64,000 nucleotides of DNA from a virus. Each line of letters starts with the position of its first letter. Position 1 is the first letter of the stretch. The stretch spans positions 1 through 64,000 of IMG/VR virus record IMGVR_UViG_3300043786_000977; one strand, written 5' to 3'. The notes below the pieces were generated by a model. That model searched no databases. It saw nothing but the letters and a program-made list of their open reading frames with translations, and was not told the origin of the DNA. Positions 15,901-46,618 of this stretch are shown piece after piece. The position numbers and the translations under genes are program-made.

Positions 15901-16059
15901 TTGACGAGCGTCGGTAATCTGGGGCCGCAACTCAATCTCACGCAGACCGAAATTGTTGAGATGCGCCAGCACCCGTTGCTGGAGGATCATGTGGTAGCTA
16001 CGGTAAACCTTGGAATGCCGAAGCCGTTCAACGTGTTCCAGTTGAAGTTAGTGGTGTAA
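12910..16059 (+). CDS. Contractile tail sheath protein
   Basis: The 1049-residue protein starts after a GGAG site and is followed by the tube gene, the order typical of contractile tails. The C-terminal 230 residues have the sheath pattern: a Pro-Pro-Gln-Gln-Pro-Ile turn, an Asn-Arg-Thr-Gln-Leu-Asn-x-Met-Ala helix leading to a Gly-Thr-Met-Ile-Leu strand, then a His-Gln-Val-Ser-Thr strand and a long helical end. The N-terminal 60 residues are also sheath-like. The protein is much longer than common sheaths (roughly 400-700 residues); the extra length is a Thr/Asp/Val-rich, probably surface-exposed beta domain (about residues 150-560). The product would contract to drive the tube into the envelope. 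Confidence 0.8.
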   Translation: MSYTLPQVQVFQIFRQLPQNVVKNLNAFVFGPHYQLFRYAVAAEKELISLGAYAKDADVTYPWPNQPTNSVVDLGYVKLYAENVWAEYLAITAGNEAQIVSEEERNKVRVDDLVLKEANGYTRSAGILRDVAVGDRVRYSYTDLYDVVHTGTTKIVGLEADMIAAVVGDAAAKASNQADVTGTADLDSGATAPVTTPAGVMTLSAVYALAGIGSDDQFPGLLSAGVVEDTITITITTGGAKGTARATVAYASGMYTRENALIETAGSQEGQIYLGNNVYLEFEADSGEDTDFVEDTEFTVELAAVFTKPDAATFGVPSADYTGTSKTTYVLEVVRGGLFDRTVTVSKGLTNVADKVLKVGPGDSTTPDWTTWLGGDYDDEYILRCTGAGSVTVAKFTLVSQRGDNESTVMFSAADTDVTVGNRGLVAQLPAGTYSVGDYWVIRVNASRPQIKITDTAGIDATQFKTVADATLMDIGAYGVEFTPAANSNAEGGVDAQGGLRRGDVYYITCTPAVVDAVKTMVFADSLASGIPAGVDIALWLYMVKNGVEVTGKRTQVAPDYNWQGDVDDGITVYQDLQVQDDSWATEEGEHLWLDVYSATLYVEYRALLNSYTDTIHVMTDVSDVATTLGTVHPDNPLAQGVYNALLNSGDRAVYYMGVVSVDAAGWSRALDKATLSEDVYVFVPLTQDAAMLDLVKAHIDTLSTETEKHWRIGFFGATTPTEDPIYTKVSNPAGEDFLAQIALDSETAEYTLLTFVDADGDPSTYTEALDDLKAGDKVRINFATDAWGDATYAEFEVATVLTNTSLRLEAGPASAIDMPTKVEVIHPYTLAEMADAVAAQSNGYFSRRIYNVFPSQLGSNGVVMTGEFGAAAVAGLASSVPPQQPITNIEVNGFDDLPLVYQTYNRTQLNKMAEYGTMILMQDTAGGRIYVRHQVSTQAKDGNLNTTELSITKNLDSISYFFAAMFAPYIGRYNITPELIEVLRTQLVAGLNYLGSLTSVGNLGPQLNLTQTEIVEMRQHPLLEDHVVATVNLGMPKPFNVFQLKLVV

Positions 16060-27004: not shown

Positions 27005-27022
27005 TTGACGATAGGAGCATTT

Positions 27023-27724
27023 ATGCTTGAATATGACACATGGCAACAATCTCAGACACCTCAAAACCTTGCGCCGCTCATGCAAGCCTTGGATCCCGTG
27101 ATCAACGCTGAGATCCAGCGTTTCACCGGCCCGAAACCACTGCTGCGTGGGCGAGCGCGGGCCTTAGCAGTCAAGGCAATACGCTCGTACGATCCGACAG
27201 CCGGTGCACAATTGAAATCCTGGGTCGTTACCCAACTGCAACCCCTGTCACGTTATACACAGCAACTCAAACCCGTGCACGCGCCTGAGGTAGCCATTCG
27301 TCAGGCAGCTGAGGTGAATAGACAGAGACAGGAACTCAGCGAGGAACTGGGTTACGATCCGAGCTCTGAAGAGTTGGCAGATCAAACAGGATTGTCAGTC
27401 AAACGGATCAATTACGTTCAGAAGATCGTGCGGCCGACGATCGCAGAGGGTAGTATGTCTGAGACGGCCGAAGAGGACAACACGTCCACAGCGCCGGGTG
27501 TGTCTCAGCTGCATAAACTCTCGGTTGTGGAAGAAGCTGTCTTTGATTCGTTAAGTCCACGTGACCAGATGATCTTCGAGTGGAAAACAGGTAAACACGG
27601 TAAAGTGCAGTTAAGCAATCAGGAGATCGCGAAACGCCTGGGCGTAACGCCGGCACTCATAAGCCAACGCAGTCAGCAGATCGCATTACAGATTCAAGCG
27701 TTACATGAGAGAGGGATACTATAA
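27023..27724 (+). CDS. Sigma-70-like factor encoded inside the baseplate operon
   Basis: ATG 27023 follows AGGAG (27013-27017) by 5 nt, giving 233 residues; the in-frame TTG at 27005 is rejected. The layout is that of a small sigma-70 family protein. Residues 41-80 have region-2 character: Ala-x2-Ala-Ile-Arg-x-Tyr-Asp-Pro-Thr-x-Gly-Ala, then Ser-Trp-Val. Residues 95-137 match region 3, with Glu-Leu-Gly-Tyr-Asp-Pro-Ser-x-Glu-Glu-Leu-Ala then Leu-Ser-Val-Lys-Arg-Ile. Residues 168-225 match region 4: Leu-Ser-Pro-Arg-Asp-Gln-x-Ile, then Ser-Asn-Gln-Glu-Ile-Ala-x-Arg-Leu-Gly-Val-Thr-x-x-x-Ile-Ser as the helix-turn-helix. It could redirect host RNA polymerase to late promoters. A structural protein with borrowed domains is the alternative. 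Confidence 0.7.
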   Translation: MLEYDTWQQSQTPQNLAPLMQALDPVINAEIQRFTGPKPLLRGRARALAVKAIRSYDPTAGAQLKSWVVTQLQPLSRYTQQLKPVHAPEVAIRQAAEVNRQRQELSEELGYDPSSEELADQTGLSVKRINYVQKIVRPTIAEGSMSETAEEDNTSTAPGVSQLHKLSVVEEAVFDSLSPRDQMIFEWKTGKHGKVQLSNQEIAKRLGVTPALISQRSQQIALQIQALHERGIL

Positions 27725-28614: not shown

Positions 28615-30222
28615 ATGGCAGACCAATTGACTTTAGCAGACGTGACCCAAGAACAGTTCGATGTCGCAGAACGGATTGTTATCGATCTATTGCGGTCAGC
28701 CTATCCTACGTTGGATCAACGGCGCGGTACAGTAATCCGTGATACCCTCGTGCGGCCCGATGCATCGCTGACGGCACTGAGCCAGGAACGTGTTGAACGC
28801 CTACGTCGGTTGATTTCGTTGTCAACGATGGCTGAGGACGGTACTGCATCTGTTGAGGATGTAAATAAAATACTGGTTAACTTCAATATGCAAAGACAGA
28901 CGGGGACAGCAAGTACCGGTGTAATCAGAGTGAAGGTAAACGCTGCACGTACTTATACCATTCCTGTCGGTTTCACGTTCGCTGCCCTGACTGGCCTGCG
29001 TTATCGTACCCAGGTATTGACTGTAGTCAAACTGGATGCTACGGAGTCGTTGGGTGAAATACCGTTATTCACTGGTACAGATAACAGTTACTACTTCTTA
29101 TTGCCCGTGACAGCGGACGGTGTTGGTTCAGTGTTCAATATCCCGCAGGGTACCGCCATGGAGCCACGGACTCAGCTTTATGGGTTTGTGTCGGCGGTTG
29201 CATATACCAATTTCTCGGACGGGCACGACGCCGAATCAATAGCGTCAGCGATCTCACGTATTCCGGCAGCGATTTCGCACCGCGGTCTAACCAACAGGAC
29301 TGCGATTGAAGCACAATTACTCGATCGCTTCAACGGTACTGCTATCGTGCTGGAGGCCGTAAGCGTCCTCGGGTATGGCGACGCGGGGCAGTTGCGGGAT
29401 AAGCATAATGTATTTGGTGTTGCTGTAGGTGGTCGTGTCGACGTCTATCCACGCACGTTCGGTCTACCTGTGGTCCGTGTGCTGGAGAAAACCGGAACGC
29501 GTAGTGCGCAAGGTATTTATACGTTCGACATCGACGTGGCGGAAGCACCCGGGTACTACGCTATACGTACGATAACTGATAAAGACAGTGTGGCATTGAG
29601 TTCGTATGCGTACACGGAGAGCAGAGGTGCAAGTGGGTTGGATCAGACCTGGCATGATATTGATGCCGCTGATCCCGTGATTGAGACTGCGTATACTGTT
29701 TTTCAGACGTCAACGATTACACTAACAGAAGTACCAGATAACGCAGCAACACACGTATTTAAGGTGGAACTATACTGTGCCCCGGGCTTGACGGAGCTTC
29801 AGGCCTACATGGACGATCCTGCCGTGCGTAATATCACCGCAGACCTATTGGTGCGTAGTCCGCTAATCTGCTTGGTTACGTGTACCGCGGCACTGTACTA
29901 CGACCTACACACGCCGCTGGATTTAGCTGACCTTCAGCGTAAGATTGCAGCATATATCAATAGTCGCAGCTTCGTTTCACGGCTCACGCGTTCAGAGATC
30001 GTGTCAGTACTACTGGCGAATGGAGTAAAGCGCGTGGACCTGGATAGCGCGGGACTGCGGCTTGAAGGTCGTATTCGTGACGCCTCTGGTGTGTGGCATA
30101 CATTGACTGGGGATAGTCTGGATCTCACCAGTATCCAGGATGCCGATGTATTGCTCGTACCTGAGACGTGTGTCTTCGCAGCTGAGATACAGAACATACA
30201 CTTGGTAGGGGTGGCTGAATAA
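28615..30222 (+). CDS. Baseplate J-like (gp6-like) wedge protein
   Basis: The 535-residue protein follows the gp25-like gene by 2 nt. It has an N-terminal helical region with Arg-Gly-Thr-Val-Ile-Arg-Asp (about 37-44), a beta domain with Gly-x-Ile-Arg-Val-x-Val and Ile-Pro-x-Gly-x-x-Phe (about 105-126), an Asp-Gly-His-Asp-Ala-Glu-Ser loop (about 202-208) and a helical C-terminal part with a Leu-Ala-Asp-Leu-Gln-Arg-Lys-Ile helix. This succession is typical of J-like wedge proteins that form the inner baseplate ring. Confidence 0.68.
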   Translation: MADQLTLADVTQEQFDVAERIVIDLLRSAYPTLDQRRGTVIRDTLVRPDASLTALSQERVERLRRLISLSTMAEDGTASVEDVNKILVNFNMQRQTGTASTGVIRVKVNAARTYTIPVGFTFAALTGLRYRTQVLTVVKLDATESLGEIPLFTGTDNSYYFLLPVTADGVGSVFNIPQGTAMEPRTQLYGFVSAVAYTNFSDGHDAESIASAISRIPAAISHRGLTNRTAIEAQLLDRFNGTAIVLEAVSVLGYGDAGQLRDKHNVFGVAVGGRVDVYPRTFGLPVVRVLEKTGTRSAQGIYTFDIDVAEAPGYYAIRTITDKDSVALSSYAYTESRGASGLDQTWHDIDAADPVIETAYTVFQTSTITLTEVPDNAATHVFKVELYCAPGLTELQAYMDDPAVRNITADLLVRSPLICLVTCTAALYYDLHTPLDLADLQRKIAAYINSRSFVSRLTRSEIVSVLLANGVKRVDLDSAGLRLEGRIRDASGVWHTLTGDSLDLTSIQDADVLLVPETCVFAAEIQNIHLVGVAE

Positions 30223-31913
30223 TGCAACCAACTATTCCGGTCCGTAATTTCGTGTCGGATGGCGACACACTGTTTCAATGGATGGGTTCATTGTGGACTA
30301 CGCTCTACAGTGATCCAACATTCCTGCGTCGGCTCCAGCATGGGCGTGCGCTCGGTGCTGCACAGACGTATCTGGATTTAATGGAGGTCGCAGGCCTGTT
30401 GGACCGAAAAGCAGCACCTGTATTTCACCGTGAACGCTGGTATCCGTTAGTGATCCGAAAGTCACAGCAGGGGCAGGGCGATGCTGCGGCACTGACACTG
30501 AACATGGAACCCACACCTGTTTTAGGCCCACAAACTGATCCTGCGTTTCCGCCACGTACCGTATTCCAACTTGGCAGTAATGCAGCTTTTTCGCAGCTCG
30601 TGACATACCCATTAACCGTAACGCCGGCCCGTGTCGTGACGTGTTTAGTTGATAACCTGGTCGCACCGAACGTGCTGTTGATTAAGGACAGAGATTTCGT
30701 GATTCAAAACGGTACGGTCGTACTCTATAAGAAGAACGATCCTTTCGGTGAGGATTCTTCATTCCCGCTAACGGTCGTAACAACAGATACAACCACGGAT
30801 CAAGAGACCGTTTTATGGGCCTGTGACGTATTATTCGATCGTGATTACGTATACGATCACATCGGTTATGTGTTCGGTGTACGGATGAGTTCATCTGATT
30901 ATTTCAAGACACTACTCAACAGCATTTGGGATCTCACAACGTCTGGTGCGTCGCCCCGGTTATTCGCGGCAGCCATGGGCGCGCTCTGTAATGTACCTAC
31001 GGTCTTGACGGCTACGGAGACAGTCGAGACGCTTACGACGGATACCAACGGTGATCAGCTGGTTATCACAGATAAACAGGTTTACCGTATACCGGCCGAC
31101 GCGATACTGCGTACAGGGGTCGTGCCCGGCGCCGTCCTCGAGTACGGGGATTATCTCGATCAGGCTATAAAGATCTATCCAGCTATTTGTGATCCACGTC
31201 CGACGAAGTTGGCAGGTATCATCGAGTACGCGACTGATATACGGCACGATGTTCCGGTTGTCACATTACCCCCGGCCTTCTTTAAGACACCCCTGGCATA
31301 TGGCCTCAGCTTCTCCTGGGAGGCGGTACCGATCTATTGTTCAGGCTCGGATGCCAACGGTAATCCAAAGTTGTGGTTCCCGATCGAAGGTCTTGCAGCG
31401 GATGTCACTGCGTTCTGGGCAGACGTATGGACACGTTGTGAAACACAGGGCGTTTCACTTGAAGCTTGTTTTGATGGGTACTTAGATGATAGAGTACCTT
31501 ATCAGGAAATGGAAGGTACCTGGGGGCATATAGAGCCACTGGCTTTTATGTTGAAGAATCTGATTGGCGCGAATACAGTTATTGTGACACTGGATGTGAC
31601 GCAGTTGCGCACAGGAGCAAGGAAGCAACTAGTCCCGTTATTTGTGGATCTATTACAGGGTACATTACCGGCGTATGTACACCTGTGCTTTGTCGAACGA
31701 CGAACAACACCGGTGGAGCCGTATGAGGCGGGCGATAACGTGCGTGATGGTGTGACCTACACAGGTGCAACCTCAAGTGCGATCAGTGCCAAATACGTGA
31801 GCTTAAGTAGGGCGAGTTTAGGGCAGGTAGGCGGTCCGCATCCCGCACGTTTGACATACAAGGATCGGCCGCCAAGGATACGATGGATTCCAATTTGTAA
31901 GGATCAACTATGA
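30222..31913 (+). CDS. Baseplate protein, function unknown
   Basis: The 563-residue soluble protein overlaps the J-like gene by 1 nt and the next gene by 4 nt (ATGA), so it is translated with the baseplate block. The N-terminus is helical with many Trp and Tyr; the rest is beta-rich with several Gly/Pro turns. It takes the place where tail protein I or gp7-like wedge proteins are often found, but I do not see a diagnostic motif. Confidence 0.5.
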   Translation: MQPTIPVRNFVSDGDTLFQWMGSLWTTLYSDPTFLRRLQHGRALGAAQTYLDLMEVAGLLDRKAAPVFHRERWYPLVIRKSQQGQGDAAALTLNMEPTPVLGPQTDPAFPPRTVFQLGSNAAFSQLVTYPLTVTPARVVTCLVDNLVAPNVLLIKDRDFVIQNGTVVLYKKNDPFGEDSSFPLTVVTTDTTTDQETVLWACDVLFDRDYVYDHIGYVFGVRMSSSDYFKTLLNSIWDLTTSGASPRLFAAAMGALCNVPTVLTATETVETLTTDTNGDQLVITDKQVYRIPADAILRTGVVPGAVLEYGDYLDQAIKIYPAICDPRPTKLAGIIEYATDIRHDVPVVTLPPAFFKTPLAYGLSFSWEAVPIYCSGSDANGNPKLWFPIEGLAADVTAFWADVWTRCETQGVSLEACFDGYLDDRVPYQEMEGTWGHIEPLAFMLKNLIGANTVIVTLDVTQLRTGARKQLVPLFVDLLQGTLPAYVHLCFVERRTTPVEPYEAGDNVRDGVTYTGATSSAISAKYVSLSRASLGQVGGPHPARLTYKDRPPRIRWIPICKDQL

Positions 31914-32518
31914 AAAAGATCAAGGACGCACAGAAAGGTATGCGCGGGTTCGTTCGCGGATACTGGTTCAATCCGGTAACGAACGAAATTAGGCATCGTT
32001 TCGAGCATCGAAACCAGTTGTCCTATGCGTGTTCTGACGCGCTGGCACAACTGATGGGTGGGAACGGGGCTTATGCACCTAGGTACATGGGGTTTATCTA
32101 CGGTGAACTAGAGACACCAACAATCGTGGCGCCAACGTCACGCAGTCAGACATGGACTGGTTTGAGTGAGGAATTGGCGGATCCCGGCGTAGTCGGGAAC
32201 ATCCAGATATCACCGATCACGTTGACACCTACCATAACGGTCGACGGGACCGCAGGGTATAGCGGGAACAGTGTGACATATAGCGCGCACACGCGCAGCG
32301 GCGGTTCTGGGAGTTATGGGTTCCCGTTAGTAAGTCCCTATGCCGACGCACTTGCAACGGGTGACTACCTCTACCACGCGATGCTAATCACACGGCTGAC
32401 TACTAGCGGGCTCGTGTATATCCCCATCGCTCGAGTCACACTGGCTGAGGATGATGCCTTCTTGGCAAAGCCAGACGGTTTCGAACTGGCCCTGGATTGG
32501 CAAATATCGTTCTTCTAA
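31910..32518 (+). CDS. Small baseplate/fibre-attachment protein, function unknown
   Basis: The 202-residue protein has a basic N-terminus with Arg-Gly-Tyr-Trp-Phe-Asn (about 16-21), a helix, then a Gly/Ser/Thr-rich beta body. The style is that of small structural proteins near tail fibres. It overlaps the upstream gene by ATGA; the next gene starts 12 nt downstream. Confidence 0.45.
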   Translation: MKKIKDAQKGMRGFVRGYWFNPVTNEIRHRFEHRNQLSYACSDALAQLMGGNGAYAPRYMGFIYGELETPTIVAPTSRSQTWTGLSEELADPGVVGNIQISPITLTPTITVDGTAGYSGNSVTYSAHTRSGGSGSYGFPLVSPYADALATGDYLYHAMLITRLTTSGLVYIPIARVTLAEDDAFLAKPDGFELALDWQISFF

Positions 32519-32530
32519 GTGGAGGTCAAC

Positions 32531-35500
32531 ATGTCACTATGGGTTGCAGTTCATGGGTTACGAGACGGCGTCGATGTTTCGGCAGATACGTTCAATACGC
32601 CGATCTTCGAACTTGCCGAGCGTACGAACTATCTCTATAACCGCTTACAGGACCTGGCTGGACTATCGACTTTCGAGTCAGTACGTCTGTACAACGTCCC
32701 GCTAACCACAACGGGAGCACTAGCTCCCGAGATCAAGGACGTGGTATGTCTCGACAACGAGACCGGGTTGTACGTTAAAGCACAGGCGTCGATGAGTTTG
32801 CTGGACGAGTTCGTCGCCGCCGATTCAGCCTTTGCAATTGGTATCTTGATCAGTAAGACGGGAACAACAGGTACAGTGTTGATTCAAGGGCGCTTGCCGT
32901 TAACCACCAGTGGTGTTGCCTGGACATTGACAGATCTACTGGAGACCGACGAGGTCTTCCGGAATGGGCAGTATTATCTGTCGTCAATCGAACCTGGTAA
33001 ACTGACCTCTACACCGTCCGGACCTCTGATCTATCTCGGTTCCTTCATGCGTAGCGCGACGGACGCCACTAAGGGCGATTATGCCGTACTGAATCCACAG
33101 CATCGCGATACCGGTGAAAGCCACGTGCACCGTAGTTTCAAGTTGTACTCTCAGCCGGCTGGACGTCAATATGTCACGGGTACCACACCTGAGGATAAAC
33201 ATTATGTTATCGGGTTCCGTACCGCGGCCGTAGAAGCTGGGGCCGTGGATCCAGAAGACCGTATACCGCGCCTCGTTTGTGGTGGACGCTGGACGGGTAC
33301 TGCACCCGTCAATTATACGTTCTGGCTGTCCAACGACGGCCTATTGAGTACACCTTCGGAACTCTCGACCGCACCGACCGGTTTCAATGACGCGTATTTG
33401 CACTGGCAGTCGAGCGATCTGACAGAGGGTACCGGCGGACGCGGTGCGACGCGCATATGGTCATTTGAGTCCCCTGTCTCGATTGGTTCTTACGGTACCA
33501 CTGTAAGCCTGGAAAATCCGACGGGCGTCGTACCGCTTGAGGGCGATCAGTGGGATATACTATACGCCGTCGTCACGGACACTCCAGACAAACGTACATG
33601 GACCGTAGAGGTACCGACAGAAACTGTTGGTTGGCGCCCACGTCTGTGGCGTCAATACTTTGCTGATCATCCGGCTGTAGACGGCAAGTTCTCTATGATC
33701 CTTATGGGCGGACCCCACGTGCAGGCCGATAAACGCCTGGCAGATACGATCACAGTCGTGTGTGCAGAAATACACGCGTTTGACATGCTTTATCCTGCTG
33801 TGTGGGATACTACTGTCATTGGTGCGTACACGTTCGAGTACGTTGACGCAGGCGACACTGTAACAGACGGCAATATCGCAGTGCTACGCGCCGGCGACAT
33901 ATACGATCCGACGGGTACGTACGACAACCTGTTAACGGCTATTCGTGCCCTGGATGACAGCACGATAACGCCAGTTATCGACGTGACCGAAGCTACGTTC
34001 CTTGTAGGCACGCCGACATCGACCACCGTGACCCATCGTGGCGTTGTTGCATCAGCATTAACGGCGGGTGAAGGTACGGTGACTGTAGGCGCCGGTGACG
34101 CAGCCTTCCTGGTCTACGACCAGTACAATCACAACCTTGTTGCGAATTACGGTACCCTCTACTGGAACAATGCAGAGTTGTGGCAGTTCGCGGCATTGAC
34201 CAACGGACTGCAGATATTACTCGTGCCTTATGACAGTGACGGTACGGCAAGTACCAGTGCCACTGTTGAGGTCGGTGACTACTGGGCGTGCGACTTGGCT
34301 GATACGGCGCCCGGCGCCAACTTCGTCTATACAGTCGAGATGCATCAATCGTTGGTTGCCTACTACCCACCAATTCCGGCGAAGGTGGCGGCACTGGTAC
34401 TCAACGGTGTCGAGCTGGACAGTGCTGAATTCTTCGGGGACGCTGCAGTCTATAACCTGGCACCTGATTCGATTCACTGGTATTCTGATGCGTATAACAC
34501 GGTACCGTGGGCTACCGATTGGACCAGTATATCTGAACCGGGATCTGAACAACTGCAGCCACGCATGCTCCTGCATTTCGTGCGCGGTACCATCGGCAAT
34601 AGTGGTTACGTGACATCGTTACGCGCCGCACCTGATGCACCGATTCGTGTGCTACAGTGTGGTACTAACGAACCAGGCACAGTCGGCGATCTGATGTTGG
34701 ACCTTGACCTGGAACTGAGTACTCAGGACGCTAATGTCGTTGGTTACCAGGTGGTGAAGGCTACTGACGGCAGTAAACTGCGTCGTGGTCCCGTGGTCGA
34801 GCGTATCCGTGTCGGTGCTGGTTTGACGATGACCCAGTCGGGTAATGCGCCCGCCGGGCAGGGTATTGTGACACTCGGACTGTCGGCAGACGGCAGCGGT
34901 TTCGCCGGTGACTTTGAGGAAGTCGCGCTGGAGAATGCCAAGCAGGAATTGATTGGCATGTTCCCATATATACGGTTGCTCGGTTGGGAAACAGGCGGTA
35001 ACAATACACCTACTGGTTTCACTGCGAAGTTCCGTGTCCCGCATACACTTGATGAAACGGCCACGTACCGTGTTATCATATTTGCAACAATGTTCGGGGA
35101 AGAGGATGTGACGCTCGTAGCAGACATGCAGCTACCGCGTGCAGGATTACAGTTCACGTATTCAGTATTACCTGATGTGTTCGCACTTGCAGGGTCTGAT
35201 GTGAGTGATCCCCGTGGTACAGCATACGGCAACCTACAGGAAAATCTGATCGAACCTGATAACCCGCGAATGGCGGCAGTGGCTATGGGCGACCTAACCA
35301 TGGACCCCGTTTACAAATCATACGATCCTATGCTTCTGCATAACAACCCGTTACTGGCTTCTGTTCCGCGCCGCATGCTCAACGTCTTCGGAAACCCATT
35401 CCCGTCACCCGACGATCTGGAGTTGGATCCGGTTACAACAAGTATGCTCGGCGTGCGCGCAGGTAGTTTAGTTGCTATTCGTATCAGTCGTGCTGATCTC

Positions 35501-35578
35501 CTGGATCCGACTGACGAGTATACGGGCGCGCTCGGGTTCATCAGTTTGAGGTGGTCGTTAATCCGGGTCGAGGAATGA
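32531..35578 (+). CDS. Large tail/baseplate structural protein, function unknown
   Basis: ATG 32531 follows GGAGG (32520-32524) by 6 nt, giving 1015 residues; the GTG at 32519 overlaps that site and is rejected. A short N-terminal helical part with Phe-Glu-Leu-Ala-Glu-Arg-Thr (about 27-33) leads into a long Thr/Val/Gly-rich beta body and a C-terminal Pro/Asp-rich domain. It lies between baseplate wedge genes and the tandem paralogue cluster, so a peripheral baseplate or fibre-socket protein is likely. No enzymatic motif is seen. Confidence 0.5.
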   Translation: MSLWVAVHGLRDGVDVSADTFNTPIFELAERTNYLYNRLQDLAGLSTFESVRLYNVPLTTTGALAPEIKDVVCLDNETGLYVKAQASMSLLDEFVAADSAFAIGILISKTGTTGTVLIQGRLPLTTSGVAWTLTDLLETDEVFRNGQYYLSSIEPGKLTSTPSGPLIYLGSFMRSATDATKGDYAVLNPQHRDTGESHVHRSFKLYSQPAGRQYVTGTTPEDKHYVIGFRTAAVEAGAVDPEDRIPRLVCGGRWTGTAPVNYTFWLSNDGLLSTPSELSTAPTGFNDAYLHWQSSDLTEGTGGRGATRIWSFESPVSIGSYGTTVSLENPTGVVPLEGDQWDILYAVVTDTPDKRTWTVEVPTETVGWRPRLWRQYFADHPAVDGKFSMILMGGPHVQADKRLADTITVVCAEIHAFDMLYPAVWDTTVIGAYTFEYVDAGDTVTDGNIAVLRAGDIYDPTGTYDNLLTAIRALDDSTITPVIDVTEATFLVGTPTSTTVTHRGVVASALTAGEGTVTVGAGDAAFLVYDQYNHNLVANYGTLYWNNAELWQFAALTNGLQILLVPYDSDGTASTSATVEVGDYWACDLADTAPGANFVYTVEMHQSLVAYYPPIPAKVAALVLNGVELDSAEFFGDAAVYNLAPDSIHWYSDAYNTVPWATDWTSISEPGSEQLQPRMLLHFVRGTIGNSGYVTSLRAAPDAPIRVLQCGTNEPGTVGDLMLDLDLELSTQDANVVGYQVVKATDGSKLRRGPVVERIRVGAGLTMTQSGNAPAGQGIVTLGLSADGSGFAGDFEEVALENAKQELIGMFPYIRLLGWETGGNNTPTGFTAKFRVPHTLDETATYRVIIFATMFGEEDVTLVADMQLPRAGLQFTYSVLPDVFALAGSDVSDPRGTAYGNLQENLIEPDNPRMAAVAMGDLTMDPVYKSYDPMLLHNNPLLASVPRRMLNVFGNPFPSPDDLELDPVTTSMLGVRAGSLVAIRISRADLLDPTDEYTGALGFISLRWSLIRVEE

Positions 35579-35593
35579 TACCAAAGGGGTTAA

Positions 35594-36508
35594 ATGCCAG
35601 CTATTTTACAACAAGAATGGTTGAATCAGAACGCAGGTCGTGCATATCCTTTTCAGGAGAACGCGACCCGCTACCCGCATGATGTTAACGGGCGCCAGTT
35701 GACATCGCTGGCATTGCCTAACTATGTCATCGTCGATATGATCTTTACGATGCCAGGACCGAGTGACCTACGGATGTACCTGGCACAGTTTGCACGGGCC
35801 GGTAATCTTTTGACCTGTGTCTTCCGTGAGACGGGTACAAACGCCATCGTAACCACGGTAACGTTTGATGCTAATACGCATGTACCAGGTACGGGGTATA
35901 GTCTGGCAGGTACCGCGGATTGGTTTGATGCCCGTGGCTGGTTGACGATCGGTGATCTACGGAAGTTAGCTGCTGACATACCCGAGGGGCTGTATAACTA
36001 CGAACCTGAGCAGACCCTGTTGGAAACGCGGGTTGTACGGCCGGCATTACGGGGTATCCGTAGTCTACGCGTAGTTAATCAGGATAACACGTCTGACTAT
36101 TTGTACGGCCACGTTAAGCTACTGGCAGGGGATAACGTGCGGCTCCAGTACGATCGAGAGCTAAACGGCGTATGGATTAATGCAGAGCCCAATGCGGGGT
36201 ACCGGGAAACATGTGACTGTGAATCACCAGCACAAACGAACCTGGTAAATACGGTCAACGGTATACCCGCCGAACACTTAACCATTGTCGGCGACGGAGA
36301 ATGTGTTGAAGTACGTACTGAAGGTGATAAGATCATCATTTCGGACAAATGCTCGGAACCGTGTTGCGGGTGTCCTGAACTGGAGTTCCTCACTGAGTCC
36401 GTGAAGGTGTTAGATGCAAGCCTGTCGCGGTTGGAATACTATTCGGAACAATTGGCCGAACGCATCTCAACGTTTGTAACTAACTTCGTGTTAACGGTGT
36501 CACGCTAA
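35594..36508 (+). CDS. Tandem paralogue 1 of 5: Tyr-Pro-Phe N-terminal motif protein
   Basis: The 304-residue protein opens with Glu8-Trp-Leu-Asn11-x-Asn13, then Tyr18-Pro19-Phe20-x-Glu22, the motif shared with the next four genes. A beta-rich body follows, then Val-Asn-Gly-Ile-Pro-Ala (about 212-217), a Gly-Asp-Gly-Glu strand pair, a Cys-rich knuckle (Cys-x3-Cys-Cys-x-Cys, about 249-256) and a C-terminal coiled-coil-like helix of about 40 residues. The plan, N-terminal anchor, beta domain and terminal helix, suggests a trimeric or docking virion protein near the fibres. Function unknown. Confidence 0.55.
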   Translation: MPAILQQEWLNQNAGRAYPFQENATRYPHDVNGRQLTSLALPNYVIVDMIFTMPGPSDLRMYLAQFARAGNLLTCVFRETGTNAIVTTVTFDANTHVPGTGYSLAGTADWFDARGWLTIGDLRKLAADIPEGLYNYEPEQTLLETRVVRPALRGIRSLRVVNQDNTSDYLYGHVKLLAGDNVRLQYDRELNGVWINAEPNAGYRETCDCESPAQTNLVNTVNGIPAEHLTIVGDGECVEVRTEGDKIIISDKCSEPCCGCPELEFLTESVKVLDASLSRLEYYSEQLAERISTFVTNFVLTVSR

Positions 36509-37821
36509 TGGCAATCCAGGTTGAATATCTTAATTCAAACACAGCGATCGCCTTCCCATTCTGTGAGAACGCGACCGGTTTGAAGCGGTCTGTCGATGAT
36601 CTGTTCGCGATGCCTTTGGATGTTTTCGTTGACGCAGCCTTTGAAGTACCACATGACTTTGCAGCGACCAAGCGCCTCTATCTGATGGGCTGCTATTACG
36701 TGGACGCTGATACGCTCCTGGCATCGATTGGAGATGGCACATCGGCTGTCGTCGATGTGACGATTGTCGCTGCCGGCGTTTTTACTGCTGCGACAGCCGT
36801 GGATAATGGTGTAACGGCACGGTTGGTTGTCGACTCTGTTGCCTTGCGTACGTACTTGGCAGCCATGGAATCACCAATCGCTTACGGGACATCCCTGCCC
36901 TTCGAGCCTGGTACGCAGGCTGTTATTAATCCGCAGGTACTGTCGTTCGCGCTGTATAACAACGGCCCGCTACAACCACCAGAAGAAGGTACGTTGTCTG
37001 GTGATGTGCGCATCTTGAGTGGGTATAATGTCGGGGTCAATATCGACGTTATTGAAGACGATACAGTACCGATCGATATCAATGCACTCCCGGGTCTAGG
37101 TCTAGGTACCTTACCCTGCACAGAAGCTGATCCTCCGTTTACAAACGTACCGCCGGGCATGGTACCCAATAAAGGCAATATTCGGTTTGTGCCTGGAGAA
37201 GAGGGTTGTTACGTCGTGGTCGTTAACCCGACGAGCAATCTGATTCAGATTCAAGGACGGTGTCAGGCGTGCTGTACGTGTGAAGACATGACTGATATGC
37301 TCGGCGTTCTTAATGTGATCGGAACACGTATCCTGGCCGTGCAAACGTTACTGAACAGTGGGCGCGCTACTTATGAAGATGGGGTCACACGGTTCAACAA
37401 GTTTATCTCTACAGACTATACCACAGTGACAATGAAGGCAAATGGGATGCGTGGTTCAGATTGGGATACCGGGGATACCAATCGCGGTTCGCCTAATTGG
37501 GCGCGTGTTGTAATGAGTGTCAACAACCGCCGACCGAACCCTGCCGAGATTACATCGTGGAAGATGACGTTCTATAACCCAGCTGATGTTACTTATGAAG
37601 ACGTCTCGTGGTCGTACGCGGGTACAGGCGGCAAGACAGCGATGGGCGGTGCACTCCCCATACTCGCCGTTGATCGGAGTCTGGCAGTCACGTTACTGGT
37701 AAGTGTGACATTTCAACAGTGGCGGCAGAATCCACGGTGGTCTGCCCTGATTGAGGTCGAGGCGACCGACACGGTGACAGGTGTCAAAGACGTCATGACA
37801 CAGACGTTGGAGTTTTCATGA
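36508..37821 (+). CDS. Tandem paralogue 2 of 5: Tyr/Phe-Pro-Phe N-terminal motif protein
   Basis: The 437-residue protein overlaps the previous stop (TAATG). The N-terminal motif is Glu6-Tyr-Leu-Asn9-x-Asn11, then Phe16-Pro17-Phe18-x-Glu20. The body is Val/Asp/Thr-rich. A Cys-x2-Cys-Cys-x-Cys knuckle (about residues 252-257) precedes a helix, as in paralogue 1. An extra C-terminal beta domain of about 140 residues distinguishes it from the other four and could be a receptor-binding or oligomerisation domain. Confidence 0.55.
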   Translation: MAIQVEYLNSNTAIAFPFCENATGLKRSVDDLFAMPLDVFVDAAFEVPHDFAATKRLYLMGCYYVDADTLLASIGDGTSAVVDVTIVAAGVFTAATAVDNGVTARLVVDSVALRTYLAAMESPIAYGTSLPFEPGTQAVINPQVLSFALYNNGPLQPPEEGTLSGDVRILSGYNVGVNIDVIEDDTVPIDINALPGLGLGTLPCTEADPPFTNVPPGMVPNKGNIRFVPGEEGCYVVVVNPTSNLIQIQGRCQACCTCEDMTDMLGVLNVIGTRILAVQTLLNSGRATYEDGVTRFNKFISTDYTTVTMKANGMRGSDWDTGDTNRGSPNWARVVMSVNNRRPNPAEITSWKMTFYNPADVTYEDVSWSYAGTGGKTAMGGALPILAVDRSLAVTLLVSVTFQQWRQNPRWSALIEVEATDTVTGVKDVMTQTLEFS

Positions 37822-38513
37822 GCGCAAGTTATATCGAGTGGTGTAACGAGAATGAGGGACGTGGTTATCCAATCGCGGAAGCGGCCTCCCGTGTGGACGA
37901 TAACGGTACCCAGTTGCCGAGTGATATCTTGGCTGACCTGGGGTTGCTGTTACCATCAAACTACACGGGGTTGCGGCTTAGTTCATTGTATATCTCGTCC
38001 ACGCTCATATCGTTATCGATCAGTGCTGACGTCGGTGGTTTACTGACAGCAACATTCGCTAAGGCGTCCGTAGTACCCTATACTGCGTATGCGTTGACGC
38101 CGTACCCTGGCGTGGACGATGTTAGTGGTTGGGTGGTGTTCGGTAATTACAAACACCACGGTTCGGTGCCATTGTATGTGCGTTTCACTACCGCGGTACA
38201 GAGTGGTTTAGAGTTACGTACGGTCCGTGTTATACCGCCGCCCGGCGTGAAGCGTTTCCAGCGTGTTAATAATGATCCTAGCATCTACGCTACCGGGATT
38301 GTAGACTTCTTGCCCGGATCACAGTTTGTTGTCGAGGTAGATCCCGACAATCCGCAGAACATCATTGTACGCTTGCACGGGGACGTAAAGTCGCGGTATA
38401 TTGAACCTTGTACACGGCCGGCGGCAGCCGGGACATGTGCGGTACCGCCCTTGAGACGTATAAACGGGGTACCCCCAGATGCAGACGGGGTCATTACATT
38501 GAGGTTCGAATAA
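37818..38513 (+). CDS. Tandem paralogue 3 of 5: Tyr-Pro-Ile N-terminal motif protein
   Basis: The 231-residue protein overlaps the previous gene by ATGA. It opens with Glu7-Trp-Cys-Asn10-x-Asn12, then Tyr17-Pro18-Ile19-x-Glu21. It ends with Arg-Ile-Asn-Gly-Val-Pro-Pro-Asp-Ala-Asp-Gly-Val-Ile-Thr-Leu, a closing element also seen in related form in paralogues 1 and 5, and lacks the terminal helix. It is the shortest of the five. Confidence 0.55.
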   Translation: MSASYIEWCNENEGRGYPIAEAASRVDDNGTQLPSDILADLGLLLPSNYTGLRLSSLYISSTLISLSISADVGGLLTATFAKASVVPYTAYALTPYPGVDDVSGWVVFGNYKHHGSVPLYVRFTTAVQSGLELRTVRVIPPPGVKRFQRVNNDPSIYATGIVDFLPGSQFVVEVDPDNPQNIIVRLHGDVKSRYIEPCTRPAAAGTCAVPPLRRINGVPPDADGVITLRFE

Positions 38514-39553
38514 TGCCAGTGGTACTATTAACCGAGTATGAGAACCAGAATCAGCGTCGCCATTACCCATTCGTCGATAACGCAACGATGAAGGATGATG
38601 ACGGGATGGCGCTACCCGCTGACTTCTTGGTTGATGCACACCTCTATCCACTGGATCCTATCGGGGGCGTCTACATTGCCAAGATTGAAGGCGGGACGAC
38701 GATTCAGTTTGCAGATACAGCGACGCGTAAGGTCTTTGGTGAGGCTGTCTACACCCCAGGCGCGCCTACTGCAGAGGTTGTGGAGACAGGGCTGTACGGA
38801 CGACAGGTAGGCTTGCTCGTCTTCGGTCCGGGGGTTGCTGATATCATTCGGGGACGTGGACAACGTACCTTTCGACCCGAAGCAACAACACTGACACCGA
38901 CGGCATATACTCCGATCAAACAGGTCGGCGTTCGTGGCGTACGGTTAGCTGACGGTACTCTGATAACAGGTGATATCAGTTTCGAGGGTCGGGACGGTGT
39001 GTTGATAACCAGTCGTATCGACGACGGCAAACATATGCTGCGTTTCGATGTGTTAGGGGTACCGCCGAATATGGAAGATTGCGGTGAAGATCCATTGATC
39101 TGTACCGTTGTCGTTGAACGGGTCCCCGGTAGTTGTTTCGTAACGAGCAAGTATGACGACTACACACTGGCCCTGACAGCAAATGGGTTGACCCTGGATG
39201 ATATCTGTGCAGCAGGCAAGGCACGCCGGCGCCCTAGTGACACGGATCCGTGCGCCGAGCCTGGACCCCCGCCGGTACCTACGCCACCAGGCGACGCAGC
39301 AACACAGCGGTTTGAGATTTGTGATATGCGGGTGGGTACGTTCATGATCGTAACGCCGTCAACGATCGGGAACCGTAATCCGATCTTTGTGAGTCCGTTG
39401 GAGGTTGCGACGATGCCTAATCGCCTGACACTACCCCCGATTACGACCGTAGACGACGCGACGGCCGCGGCTGAACGGTTCCGTTCACCAGAAGTAATGT
39501 CAGGCGGTCTGATTATTGGATTCCAAGGTATTGGAAAGGGCCAATTACCATGA
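38513..39553 (+). CDS. Tandem paralogue 4 of 5: Tyr-Pro-Phe N-terminal motif protein
   Basis: ATG 38513 overlaps the previous stop (TAATG); an in-frame start at 38408 would overlap the upstream gene by about 100 nt and is rejected. The 346-residue protein opens with Glu8-Tyr-x-Asn11-x-Asn13, then Tyr18-Pro19-Phe20-x-Asp22. It has a beta-rich body, scattered cysteines, a Pro-rich linker (about 255-268) and a C-terminal domain rich in Thr/Pro. Same genomic block and probably same assembly as its four relatives. Confidence 0.55.
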   Translation: MPVVLLTEYENQNQRRHYPFVDNATMKDDDGMALPADFLVDAHLYPLDPIGGVYIAKIEGGTTIQFADTATRKVFGEAVYTPGAPTAEVVETGLYGRQVGLLVFGPGVADIIRGRGQRTFRPEATTLTPTAYTPIKQVGVRGVRLADGTLITGDISFEGRDGVLITSRIDDGKHMLRFDVLGVPPNMEDCGEDPLICTVVVERVPGSCFVTSKYDDYTLALTANGLTLDDICAAGKARRRPSDTDPCAEPGPPPVPTPPGDAATQRFEICDMRVGTFMIVTPSTIGNRNPIFVSPLEVATMPNRLTLPPITTVDDATAAAERFRSPEVMSGGLIIGFQGIGKGQLP

Positions 39554-40302
39554 TGACACGTACGCCAGAGTGGTTAAACGCAAACCGATACCGCCGGTAC
39601 CCATTCCGTGACGACACGAACTTGACCTGTACCGGGAGCCGGGCGTTGTCGAACGATGTGCTCCTAGATTGTCGCCTGGTCAGTTGTACGCGTGCACAGG
39701 CTGCGTTGTCGTTATTGGATGTTGAAGTTACGACCGGTCAGGCCTCTTTACTGTTTGCTTTCGGTTATGACAATTGCCTGTTCTGTGTGACTGTACCCGC
39801 CGCAGCTAGTTACCCGTATACGGTAACAGGTAGTTCGCTCGGACTGCAGTATACCCTTATCTTCGGCGAGGGCTGTAAGACGTTACTGGCATGGCCTGTG
39901 GGTATGTACAACCTGATAGAGTCGCCAGTCTTGCAGCCGGCCCTTACCGTGGTCCAGGACCGCCATCGTGTCGATACCGTGCGTGCCACGGGTGAAGGAC
40001 AAACAACGTTGTCCGGGCTTGTGTACATCGAACCGGGATATAACTGCGAACCAGTGGTCATGCCCAACAAGATCCGGTTATCGGCTGGTTTAGGTTACGG
40101 TGCAGGTCGTTATTGTAATTCACTCAGCGATGCTGTAAGATCTTGTGCTGAAGCCATCCTTTGGGTAAACGGACAGAACGCAGATGAAGCCGGTAACTTG
40201 CCCCTTGTCGGTGGCCCTGGTGTTGAGGTTGAAAGCCAACCTGATCAGAATCGAGTCGTGATACGTGGTAATACGTTACTAGAACAGACGAAGTGTGGAT
40301 AA
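39550..40302 (+). CDS. Tandem paralogue 5 of 5: Tyr-Pro-Phe N-terminal motif protein
   Basis: The 250-residue protein overlaps the previous gene by 4 nt. It opens with Glu7-Trp-Leu-Asn10-x-Asn12, then Tyr17-Pro18-Phe19-x-Asp21. It is Cys-rich and ends with Trp-Val-Asn-Gly-Gln-Asn-Ala-Asp-x-Ala-Gly-Asn-Leu-Pro-Leu, resembling the closing element of paralogues 1 and 3. The repeat protein begins 1 nt after its stop. Confidence 0.55.
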   Translation: MMTRTPEWLNANRYRRYPFRDDTNLTCTGSRALSNDVLLDCRLVSCTRAQAALSLLDVEVTTGQASLLFAFGYDNCLFCVTVPAAASYPYTVTGSSLGLQYTLIFGEGCKTLLAWPVGMYNLIESPVLQPALTVVQDRHRVDTVRATGEGQTTLSGLVYIEPGYNCEPVVMPNKIRLSAGLGYGAGRYCNSLSDAVRSCAEAILWVNGQNADEAGNLPLVGGPGVEVESQPDQNRVVIRGNTLLEQTKCG

Positions 40303-40303
40303 T

Positions 40304-42898
40304 ATGCGTGATCCTTTTCAAATGTCAGGTGATTGCCCGGTACTGGTCGTCGATCTCGGTATCCTGGAGAATCTGCCGATTTGCAGTATTCCTGGGTTCA
40401 CGAGTCCAACACACGCGATTCGGTTACCCGAACTAAACCCACCAGATATTGCAGCGCCGGATATCTGTTTCTGTATTAGTGTGGACGTACAAACCTCGAA
40501 GAACTATTTGGTTAATTCCTTCAGTGGACGCTGGTCACGTAAGACTGATGACTGTTGCGACGCGCAGTACAACCTGTCACTCAATCTAGATGTACCCTGT
40601 ATGCCGTTGAGCGTAGCAGCATCCCAAGCTGTCAAGATCACAACTGACACAGTGCCATATTTGAACGTCACACTCGGCAAGACTGCCACTGCCCCGGAGT
40701 GCGCCCTGAGTTTGTTCGTTTCGCTCGACATCCCTTGCATGCCCTTGAGTGTCAGGGTTTCCCATACAGTTGCGTTGAAAGATACCGCCGTACCACATCT
40801 TAAGGTTGACTTTGGCAAGACGGGTACTGCTTCTGTATGTGCTTTAAGCCTGTTCGTCTCTCTTGACATTCCGTGTATGCCCCTGAGTGTCAGGGTTTCC
40901 CATACAGTTGCGTTGAAAGACACCACCGTACCACATCTGCGGGTAGACTTCGGTAAGACCGCAACTGCCTCTGAGTGTGCTTTAAGCTTGTTTGTCTCGT
41001 TGGATATACCTTGCATGCCCTTGAGCGTCAGGGTATCGAAGACTGTCGCACTGACAGACGACATAGAACCACACCTCCGGGTGGACTTCGGGAAAACAGG
41101 CACTGCGTCGGAATGTGCGTTGAGTTTGTTTGTCTCGTTGGATATACCTTGCATGCCCTTGAGCGTTAGGGTCTCGAAGACCGTTGCGTTAACAGATGAC
41201 GCGGCGCCACATCTTAAGGTTGACTTCGGCAAGACTGGAACAGCTTCTGAATGTGCTCTGAGTTTGTTTGTCTCGCTCGACATTCCGTGTATGCCTTTAA
41301 GCGTCAAGGTCTCACATAATGTGGCGTTGACAGACGACGTAGAACCACATCTGCGGGTAGACTTCGGCAAGACTGGTACTGCCTCGGAGTGCGCGCTGAG
41401 TTTGTTTATTTCCCTAGACATCCCTTGTATGCCTTTAAGCGTCAGGGTATCGCACACCGTCGCATTGAAAGATACCGACGAGCCGCACCTACGTGTAGAC
41501 TTCGGTAAGACCGCAACTGCCTCAGAGTGTGCGCTGAGTTTGTTTATCTCCCTAGACATCCCCTGCATGCCTCTGAGCGTCAAGGTCTCACATAATGTGG
41601 CGTTGACAGACGACGTAGAACCGCATCTTCGGATTGACTTCGGGAAAACCGGAACAGCCTCTGAATGTGCGCTTAGTCTGTTCGTCTCGCTCGACATTCC
41701 GTGTATGCCCCTGAGCGTCCGGGTCTCGAAGACCGTCGTACTGACGGATGCCGTCGAACCGCACCTCCGGGTAGACTTCGGGAAGACCGGAACAGCTTCC
41801 GAATGTGCTCTCAGCCTGTTCGTCTCTCTCGACATTCCGTGTATGCCTTTAAGTGTCAGGGTCTCCCACACTATAGGGTTAACAGACGACGCAGAACCGC
41901 ACCTCCGGGTAGACTTCGGGAAGACCGGAACAGCTTCCGAATGTGCTCTCAGCCTGTTCGTCTCTCTCGACATTCCGTGTATGCCGCTGAGTGTCAGGGT
42001 ATCGAAGACTGTCACGTTGACCAATGACACCGAACCGCATCTGCAGGTAGACTTCGGGAAAACAGGTACTGCCTCGGAGTGCACGTTGAGCCTGTTCATT
42101 TCCCTAGACATACCCTGTATGCCCTTGAGTGTTACCGTATCACACACTGTTGCGTTGACCAATGACACTGAACCGCACCTACGGGTGGACTTCGGTAAAA
42201 CAGGTACTGCCTCGGAGTGTAAGTTGAGTCTGTTCGTCTCGCTCGACATCCCTTGCATGCCGTTGAGTATTACAGCAGATCAGGCCGTACAGATTACGAA
42301 CAGTGTAGCACCGTATTTGAACGTCGCACTCGGTAAGACTGGAACTGCTTCTGACTGCACGTTGAGTTTGTTCGTCTCGCTTGATATACCCTGTATGCCG
42401 TTCAGCATCGGTCCCGCGTGGGATCAGACAGATGTCCCGTTCGGTAGCAACGGCCTATTCAACATTAACCTCCAATTGGTTAAGACCAATAAGCAACTGC
42501 GCATATCTGGTACCCTGGGTATTACCGAGGACGACTGTTGCACGCCAACCCCATGGGCGCCCTCAATCATCGGCAGTACCCTTACTATTGCCAACCCTAT
42601 CTACCTCCGTTCGCCGAAATATTTTGTCCCTGCAGATCTTACCTATAGTTTGGTGGTGAGTGATGGTGCTGGCGATTACTACTGTGGCGTCAAGATCAAT
42701 GTCATTAACGGCACTATCGATCCCACGCTTCTCATATCCAAGACGCTTTCTGACGTCGTCTACACTAGTCTCGCTGCGGCTCACGCTGACGCCGACTACA
42801 TGCGACTGCTCGTCTGTGTCGTTACTTACGATGCAGTAAACTTTACAATTAAACTACGCTGCATCAACAGCGTACCGGAGTTGGGTAACTACGCTTAA
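40304..42898 (+). CDS. Repeat protein with 14 copies of a 46-residue cysteine-containing unit
   Basis: ATG 40304 lies 1 nt after the previous stop, with GTGGA just upstream; 864 residues. After a 90-residue Pro/Cys-containing N-terminus, the core Leu-Asp-Ile/Val-Pro-Cys-Met-Pro occurs 14 times at exact 46-residue spacing (nt 40586 + 138n, n = 0-13). Each internal unit has two cysteines (Pro-Cys-Met, and Ser-Glu-Cys) and ends with Val-Asp-Phe-Gly-Lys-Thr. The regular strand-like pattern suggests a beta-solenoid or bead-on-string fibre, perhaps with disulfides or metal links between units. The C-terminal 150 residues form a separate beta domain, a possible tip. It follows the five paralogues and is probably part of the same appendage. 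Confidence 0.6.
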   Translation: MRDPFQMSGDCPVLVVDLGILENLPICSIPGFTSPTHAIRLPELNPPDIAAPDICFCISVDVQTSKNYLVNSFSGRWSRKTDDCCDAQYNLSLNLDVPCMPLSVAASQAVKITTDTVPYLNVTLGKTATAPECALSLFVSLDIPCMPLSVRVSHTVALKDTAVPHLKVDFGKTGTASVCALSLFVSLDIPCMPLSVRVSHTVALKDTTVPHLRVDFGKTATASECALSLFVSLDIPCMPLSVRVSKTVALTDDIEPHLRVDFGKTGTASECALSLFVSLDIPCMPLSVRVSKTVALTDDAAPHLKVDFGKTGTASECALSLFVSLDIPCMPLSVKVSHNVALTDDVEPHLRVDFGKTGTASECALSLFISLDIPCMPLSVRVSHTVALKDTDEPHLRVDFGKTATASECALSLFISLDIPCMPLSVKVSHNVALTDDVEPHLRIDFGKTGTASECALSLFVSLDIPCMPLSVRVSKTVVLTDAVEPHLRVDFGKTGTASECALSLFVSLDIPCMPLSVRVSHTIGLTDDAEPHLRVDFGKTGTASECALSLFVSLDIPCMPLSVRVSKTVTLTNDTEPHLQVDFGKTGTASECTLSLFISLDIPCMPLSVTVSHTVALTNDTEPHLRVDFGKTGTASECKLSLFVSLDIPCMPLSITADQAVQITNSVAPYLNVALGKTGTASDCTLSLFVSLDIPCMPFSIGPAWDQTDVPFGSNGLFNINLQLVKTNKQLRISGTLGITEDDCCTPTPWAPSIIGSTLTIANPIYLRSPKYFVPADLTYSLVVSDGAGDYYCGVKINVINGTIDPTLLISKTLSDVVYTSLAAAHADADYMRLLVCVVTYDAVNFTIKLRCINSVPELGNYA
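40574..42410 (+). repeat. 138-bp tandem repeat array, 14 core copies
   Basis: The unit is 138 bp and in frame. Anchors lie at 40586, 40724, 40862, 41000, 41138, 41276, 41414, 41552, 41690, 41828, 41966, 42104, 42242 and 42380. Some neighbouring units are nearly identical over long stretches (for example around 40725-40925 and 41800-41990), which points to recent duplication or recombination within the array. The end units are more diverged. Confidence 0.95.
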
Positions 42899-45625: not shown

Positions 45626-46618
45626 ATGAATACAAGTGATCGCATACCACTGATCCCGCCCACGCGGGTTAAGATTGCCGTCTCGATTCTGTCCGAGACA
45701 CAAGACTATAATCACCGTCTAATGAACATTCCGGCGATGTGGCGTAGTACACGCGGCGCTGGCGTCAAGGTCGCTATTCTGGATACAGGTCTGCCTAAGC
45801 ATGTCGATCTGTTACCCTCCGGTGGTAAGAGTTTTATTGAAGGGTATCTGCTCGATACAAACGGGCATAGTACACACTGCGGTGGTATTATCGCAGCAAC
45901 CGCCAATAACAATATGGGTGTGATGGGCATTGCACCGGACGTTGAAGACTGGTACGGGGCAGTCCTGGATGGTGATGGTCAAGGTAGTATTGATTCCATT
46001 ATCAACGGCATTCGGTGGGCTGTAGACGTTGTTGGCGCCGACATCATCAGTATGAGTCTAGGTATACCGGCCAATGCACGCTACGAACGAGCACTGGAAG
46101 CAGTGTGCCAGTATGCTGTGAACCAGGGCGTCGCAATATTTGCCGCGGCTGGCAACGAGTACGGTGCTGTGGGTCAGCCCGCGCAATACGATTGCGTATA
46201 CGCGGTTGCCGCAATCGATAAGAACTTCACACCAGCAGATTTCTCGAATCGGGGACAGTCAGTCGACTTTGCGGCCGGCGGTGTAGACGTCTTTTCGACC
46301 TACCTTAACGATACGTACGCCAAGTTGAGTGGTACGTCTATGGCTACTCCTGCACTCGTGGGTGTCGCAGCACTCATTCTCAGCGACGCCAGGCAGGGCG
46401 CACAGCCCCGTAAACTGACACCGGCTGAGTTGGGCGCCAAACTACGGAAGATAGCATTTGACGTCGGGCCTGCTGGCGTAGACGATGCGACAGGTATCGG
46501 AATTCCTGTCTTCCAGTCGTCAGGTACCGAACCCGTCGTACCACCTGTGGTAGTCCCGGGCTATCCGACTCACCGGCCCTGGTGGCAATACCTGTGGCCT
46601 GGTTATTGGTGTCTCTGA
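45626..46618 (+). CDS. Subtilisin-like serine protease (S8 family)
   Basis: The 330-residue protein starts 6 nt after AGGAGG. All catalytic elements are visible: Asp53 in Ile-Leu-Asp-Thr-Gly, His81 in Gly-His-Ser-Thr-His-Cys-Gly-Gly, the oxyanion Asn177 in Ala-Ala-Gly-Asn-Glu, and Ser238 in Ser-Gly-Thr-Ser-Met-Ala-Thr-Pro. There is no signal peptide and only a short N-terminal region, so it is probably made active inside the cell or packaged. The C-terminus is Pro/Trp-rich. The His motif has Ser and Cys where most subtilases have Gly and Val. It may process virion or host proteins; the target is unknown. This is distinct from the prohead protease at 5834. Confidence 0.88.
   Translation: MNTSDRIPLIPPTRVKIAVSILSETQDYNHRLMNIPAMWRSTRGAGVKVAILDTGLPKHVDLLPSGGKSFIEGYLLDTNGHSTHCGGIIAATANNNMGVMGIAPDVEDWYGAVLDGDGQGSIDSIINGIRWAVDVVGADIISMSLGIPANARYERALEAVCQYAVNQGVAIFAAAGNEYGAVGQPAQYDCVYAVAAIDKNFTPADFSNRGQSVDFAAGGVDVFSTYLNDTYAKLSGTSMATPALVGVAALILSDARQGAQPRKLTPAELGAKLRKIAFDVGPAGVDDATGIGIPVFQSSGTEPVVPPVVVPGYPTHRPWWQYLWPGYWCL

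Follow-up and report, generated by a model that had tools for sequence, protein, structure and literature searches.

The tailspikes TSP1-TSP4 of CBA120, a member of the Ackermannviridae, are encoded by adjacent genes and furnish the baseplate of a myovirus with several proteins for host recognition (PMC8825819, PMC11414711). T4 gp10, gp11 and gp12 are likewise neighbouring tail proteins, for which a common primordial fold was inferred from superimposable structures (PMC3004832), and in Bacillus phage 0305phi8-36, a 218-kb myovirus, paralogous domain families a-c are found in several virion proteins, where they were proposed to provide a common anchorage for other domains (PMC2147016). By sheath and baseplate J protein, the nearest cultured phages to the locus described here are Salmonella phage Arash and Vibrio phages D69, D148 and D181, which have a homologous sheath C-terminus, a homologous J and the same local gene order around J; gp10-gp16 of Arash were identified as virion proteins by mass spectrometry.

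The window analysed here is the first 64 kb (64,000 nucleotides) of the 208,908-base record (about 209 kb) of an uncultured phage. Five consecutive genes in it, numbered below as slots 1 to 5, probably encode paralogous subunits of the host-attachment apparatus on the tail baseplate of a contractile-tailed phage. All five open reading frames lie on the same strand and their ends overlap or abut (Table 1); the ATG of slot 4 sits within the stop of slot 3 ('taATG'), and the 381-aa slot 4 start at 38408 given by mechanical ORF calling was rejected as an over-extension into the slot 3 gene. An N-terminal motif had been noticed in these genes on inspection of the DNA, and this was confirmed by a pattern search, as E[WY]xNxNx4[YF]P[FI]x[ED] is found in these five only among the 237 ORFs of the window and did not occur in 200 shuffles of all 237. 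It is also the best conserved part of the paralogues (2.17 bits per column versus 1.15 elsewhere), with an invariant proline (102 of 102 aligned cores) preceded by Tyr or Phe in 99 of the 102. The Asn-Gly element attributed to genes 1, 3 and 5 was found again, but proved to be family-wide rather than limited to these three, and the cysteine ahead of it is near-invariant (81/84). The cysteine knuckle (CCxC) and C-terminal helix described for genes 1 and 2 are indeed specific to them: among 70 complete loci, both features occur in slot 1 of all 70 and in slot 2 of 69, and in slots 3-5 of none. The helix following CCxC has an exact hydrophobic period of 3.5 residues (heptad), which identifies it as a coiled coil.

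Table 1. Tail genes of the window and the five-paralogue cluster (positions are those of the window).
Feature	Position	Strand	Remarks
Tail sheath	12910-16059		PHROG 279
Baseplate wedge subunit (J family)	28615..30222	+	PHROG 6, E 2.4e-21; anchors the set in the baseplate module
563-aa conserved neighbour	30222..31913	+	directly after J; P2 gpI-like by position only
202-aa conserved neighbour	31910..32518	+	order kept in relatives
1019-aa conserved neighbour, candidate attachment partner	32519..35578	+	directly upstream of slot 1 in relatives
Slot 1 paralogue, 304 aa	35594..36508	+	motif EWLNQNAGRAYPFQEN, beta-sandwich core, Asn-Gly element, CCGC knuckle, C-terminal coiled-coil helix
Slot 2 paralogue, 437 aa	36508..37821	+	motif EYLNSNTAIAFPFCEN, core, CCTC knuckle and helix, C-terminal extension of ~140 aa
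Slot 3 paralogue, 231 aa	37818..38513	+	motif EWCNENEGRGYPIAEA, nothing beyond core and Asn-Gly element
Slot 4 paralogue, 346 aa	38513..39553	+	motif EYENQNQRRHYPFVDN, core, C-terminal extension rich in Cys/Pro
Slot 5 paralogue, 250 aa	39550..40302	+	motif EWLNANRYRRYPFRDD, core and Asn-Gly element
867-aa protein	40295..42898	+	directly downstream of slot 5; about a dozen ~48-aa tandem repeats ('..CALSLFVSLDIPCMPLSVRVSHTVALKD..')

Similarity between the five proteins extends well beyond the motif. BLASTP aligned gene 1 with gene 3 over residues 8-227 (8e-12), genes 2, 4 and 5 giving weaker alignments. The motif and 22 further residues were cut away from the members of about 70 loci, and HHalign of the slot profiles still related all ten slot pairs with probabilities of 84.5-99.8% (E 7e-6 to 6e-28, 143-255 columns), as compared with 0.6% at most for 25 controls in which slots were paired with five gene families of the neighbourhood. 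By profile comparison, the five cores of about 220 aa each are homologous along their full length, i.e., paralogues, and similarity confined to the motif was ruled out by this experiment. The sequence-only reading, according to which the rest of each protein diverges strongly, was thus correct as regards percent identity (about 25%) and incorrect in so far as homology persists outside the motif, throughout the core. Its proposal of a common anchor carrying variable exposed domains was upheld in part: the proteins are paralogues, encoded in the tail-tip region, and some bear variable C-terminal passengers (one of them a lectin fold in relatives), but the N-terminal anchor is not the sole shared part, since the whole core remains homologous with the motif removed.

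The structure model of the window slot 1 protein (mean pLDDT 74) has low-confidence residues 1-15, after which Tyr-Pro-Phe runs into a confidently predicted beta-sandwich. The motif had been taken for a docking tail, which this model does not support; because Tyr-Pro-Phe leads into the confident sandwich, the motif is as likely to play a structural part in the fold as to serve in docking, and it may complete the fold or become ordered upon partner binding. A model of slot 3 from the related locus L018 (mean pLDDT 77) shares with window slot 1 the order of secondary-structure elements in the core. Foldseek returned no significant match for the slot 1 model against the PDB and viral models, and a C2-domain kinship was rejected, as a Z of about 5 over about 80 residues was read as a common sandwich arrangement. 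The function of the core cannot therefore be read from homology. Searches of 50,697 phage records, PHROGs, Pfam and the PDB revealed no member of the family: PHROGs and Pfam gave nothing meaningful for the window slot proteins, PDB sequence profiles matched the slot proteins by coiled-coil noise only, and tblastn against the 50,697 records gave no match for P0001, P0003 or L018 slots 1 and 5, slot 3 being matched solely via a short fibre module.

By its gene content, the region is a contractile-tail module, and placement of the five proteins at the tail tip is suggested by gene order. The order 173-aa protein, J, 563-aa, 202-aa and 1019-aa proteins, slots 1-5 is common to the 13 divergent genomes compared, apart from loci that are cut. 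The 1019-aa protein matches a 644-aa protein of L001 and is not homologous to the slots (HHalign control). The 867-aa protein was left outside the conserved set because it is found in near relatives only, its non-repeat ends matching L049, L050 and L057. An RNA polymerase sigma factor gene also lies within the tail module (27005-27724, PHROG 351), in a position that matches the virion-associated sigma factor gp10 of Arash. A subtilisin-like protease (45626-46618, PHROG 3677, E 6e-63) is encoded a few genes downstream of the set; homologues occur near the set in several relatives, and upstream of slot 1 in L051, L053, L092 and L093.

Relatives were collected from IMG/VR by searches with slot 1, which yielded 43 and then 110 related contigs together with two contigs from metagenome-assembled genomes; apart from the window, the retained loci represent about 87 contigs, counted as contig names in the locus list. 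A slot 1 ortholog was found in all related contigs, and those records that look complete are uncultured phages of 160-230 kb. Of 126 loci examined by profile search, 118 have exactly five members, on one strand and in one order. In seven of the remaining eight, the cluster is truncated where the contig or the retrieved stretch ends, and L053, the last of them, also has five once two sets of profile matches are combined. Uncut clusters always comprise five members in fixed order, downstream of a baseplate-J homologue. In 22 records searched whole, no sixth copy was found and matches were confined to the cluster; the full record of the window similarly holds five members and no more. Independent entry through slot 5, slot 3 and the back-translated motif led to the same number. 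The motif is indeed conserved in homologues across the phage sequences of IMG/VR and is near-diagnostic, as 77 of the first 80 motif-matched stretches carry the family. In the most divergent clades, three or four copies were counted at first, but this was a detection artefact, re-reading of the records giving five each time, and records listed with six matches owed this to split matches within one ORF. These counts describe uncultured contigs found by their similarity to the set, a sample in which loss of a member beyond recognition would be missed. Members were also seen in contigs binned to Phycisphaerales (L047) and Synechococcaceae (L048) genomes, which are weak hints of hosts and possibly binning errors.

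Age and rate of divergence were evaluated from the cores. In an unrooted tree computed by maximum likelihood for 115 cores (23 genomes), every slot falls on one side of a branch, with support of 96, 80, 97, 99 and 94, the slot 2 branch being the weakest of the five. Slot labels change four times on this tree, which is the minimum, versus a mean of 69.9 after shuffling. Each slot forms its own clade and the four duplications should therefore be older than the lineage; on the evidence of the tree, copy number and order have been frozen since four ancient duplications, each of which happened once. Between genomes, baseplate J has a median identity of 30% and the five cores have 33, 25, 30, 30 and 25%, so that, in terms of sequence identity, the cores diverge about as fast as J and not unusually fast, which argues against ongoing duplication for diversity. 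The earlier suggestion that repeated duplication reflects selection for diversity was not borne out, the duplications being ancient, the copy number fixed at five and the core rate similar to that of J; recent duplications of this kind are ruled out by the tree and the identity comparison together.

Variability resides, at the sequence level, in the passengers appended to the cores and not in the cores themselves. Length is near constant in slot 1 (quartiles 313-318 aa) and slot 4 (259-277 aa) and varies widely in slots 2 and 3. The C-terminal domain of the L018 slot 3 model (residues 360-577) superimposes on CBM66 (4b1m) with a Z of 19.5 and an rmsd of 2.1 over 157 residues, and a profile of this CBM66/ConA-like domain matches only slot 3, where it is present in 49 of the 70 complete loci. 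Judged by this model, the slot 3 passenger has a beta-sandwich lectin fold and is a putative carbohydrate binder. Slot 3 of the window (231 aa) has neither lectin domain nor other passenger, and sugar binding by the window set is consequently suggested by its relatives. Slot 3 also comprises a 40-residue fibre-type module common to tail fibre and minor tail proteins of cultured phages, and in L008 (12455-16141) the slot 3 protein carries an FGE-sulfatase (C-type-lectin-like) domain at residues 519-662 (E 1.4e-15). In a divergent clade, slot 2 proteins of 3,485 aa (L344, 1002-11459) and 3,882 aa (L345, 990-12638) begin with the family motif. The slot 2 protein of L001 (10947-16736, 1929 aa) has long serine runs and repeated domains of about 100 aa preceding the family core.

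Taken together, the set is best read as a multi-protein adhesion assembly of the tail. A five-part host-attachment assembly is probable, rather than recent copies made for variety, because complete related clusters keep the same five members in the same order. From a mechanistic point of view, the ancestral gene may have encoded a beta-sandwich capped by an N-terminal segment of the form aromatic-x-N-x-N-x4-Y-P, together with a second, small beta-domain and a beta element of the Asn-Gly type; it would have been duplicated four times before the known lineage diversified, each copy keeping its fixed slot since then. The five proteins would be co-translated from their overlapping genes by translational coupling and would assemble into one structure at the baseplate periphery, in which slots 1, 4 and 5, near constant in length, may serve mainly as scaffold, and slots 2 and 3 may supply the exposed parts that contact the host and bind surface glycans. 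Slots 1 and 2 have a heptad coiled-coil stalk. In its most specific form, which we put forward tentatively as one possibility, this would be an obligate heteromeric hub of five paralogous subunits, locked in position by ancient duplication and subfunctionalisation and kept throughout the lineage, with one lectin slot, one giant-fibre slot and growth of the complex by paralogue replacement. The absence of the five-paralogue family from both complete cultured records searched, Arash and D181, counts against the host-attachment reading as a whole, since these cousins have the same J region and do without the set.

Other arrangements would account for part of these observations. Each protein could be an independent receptor-binding fibre or spike, fixed to the baseplate by its own core and widening the host range with no common heteromer, in line with the lectin and FGE-sulfatase folds and giant proteins appended to cores, and with the several receptor-binding proteins with conserved N-termini known in Ackermannviridae (PMC11414711). 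Host-range modules would nevertheless be expected to be gained and lost, whereas number and order are invariant here; slots 1 and 4 rarely carry a passenger and the type of passenger is slot-specific, which makes this arrangement unlikely. The proteins might instead be plain scaffold of the baseplate periphery, with adhesion incidental where slot 3 has gained a lectin domain. Window slots 1, 3 and 5, which hardly exceed the core, and cores as conserved as baseplate J would fit this; however, a lectin domain in 49 of 70 loci is not rare, and the short fibre module and the Asn-Gly element also occur in phage fibre proteins. Despite the precedent of T4 gp10, gp11 and gp12, which are baseplate proteins derived from one fold (PMC3004832), we consider a purely scaffolding set quite improbable. 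A role as head or neck decoration fibres could be proposed from the weak match of the slot 3 module to a PHROG 'head decoration protein' (E 0.004), but the same module occurs in minor tail and tail fibre proteins and the set is invariably preceded by baseplate J and its neighbours and, in the window, is separated from the sheath gene by about 20 kb, so that such a location is very hard to credit.

The host-attachment reading gives a name to a core structural module of a large lineage of uncultured phages, in which nearly all the genes examined are otherwise unannotated. Tail tips are usually three- or six-fold symmetric; why, then, are there exactly five related and different subunits, with none lost or added? 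If they form one heteromer, the set would clearly illustrate how a single protein can become, by duplication, a fixed machine of several parts, and slots 2 and 3 would be indicated as host-range determinants.

Compared with described systems, the paralogous domains of 0305phi8-36 are scattered over modules and absent from its relative BtI1, whereas the present set is contiguous in all relatives found. The likeness to the branched tailspikes of Ackermannviridae lies in conserved N-terminal parts and variable, sugar-recognising C-terminal domains (PMC8825819, PMC11414711). Those phages have four trimeric enzymatic spikes, with XD domains in TSP2 and TSP4 only and T4-gp10-like domains for assembly; by contrast, there are five members here, one core, for which no solved sequence was matched, is found in all five, the passengers are lectins and not depolymerases, and number and order are fixed over a far more divergent lineage. 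For XD (T4-gp10-like) domains, there was no sequence-profile match to a PDB chain and no significant fold match, a distant fold match being possible, and a trimeric beta-helix catalytic domain was matched neither in the window proteins (Pfam, PHROGs) nor in ten long relatives (Pfam). Kinship among T4 gp10, gp11 and gp12 involves three proteins and is visible in structure only, while here five are recognisable by sequence profile; sequence profiles and Foldseek found no match between the five-slot core and the T4 proteins. Membership in the Ackermannviridae or T4 type is not claimed, since no homology to gp10-type domains was found. By analogy, the set would work like the branched tailspikes of Ackermannviridae and evolve like T4 gp10-gp11-gp12.
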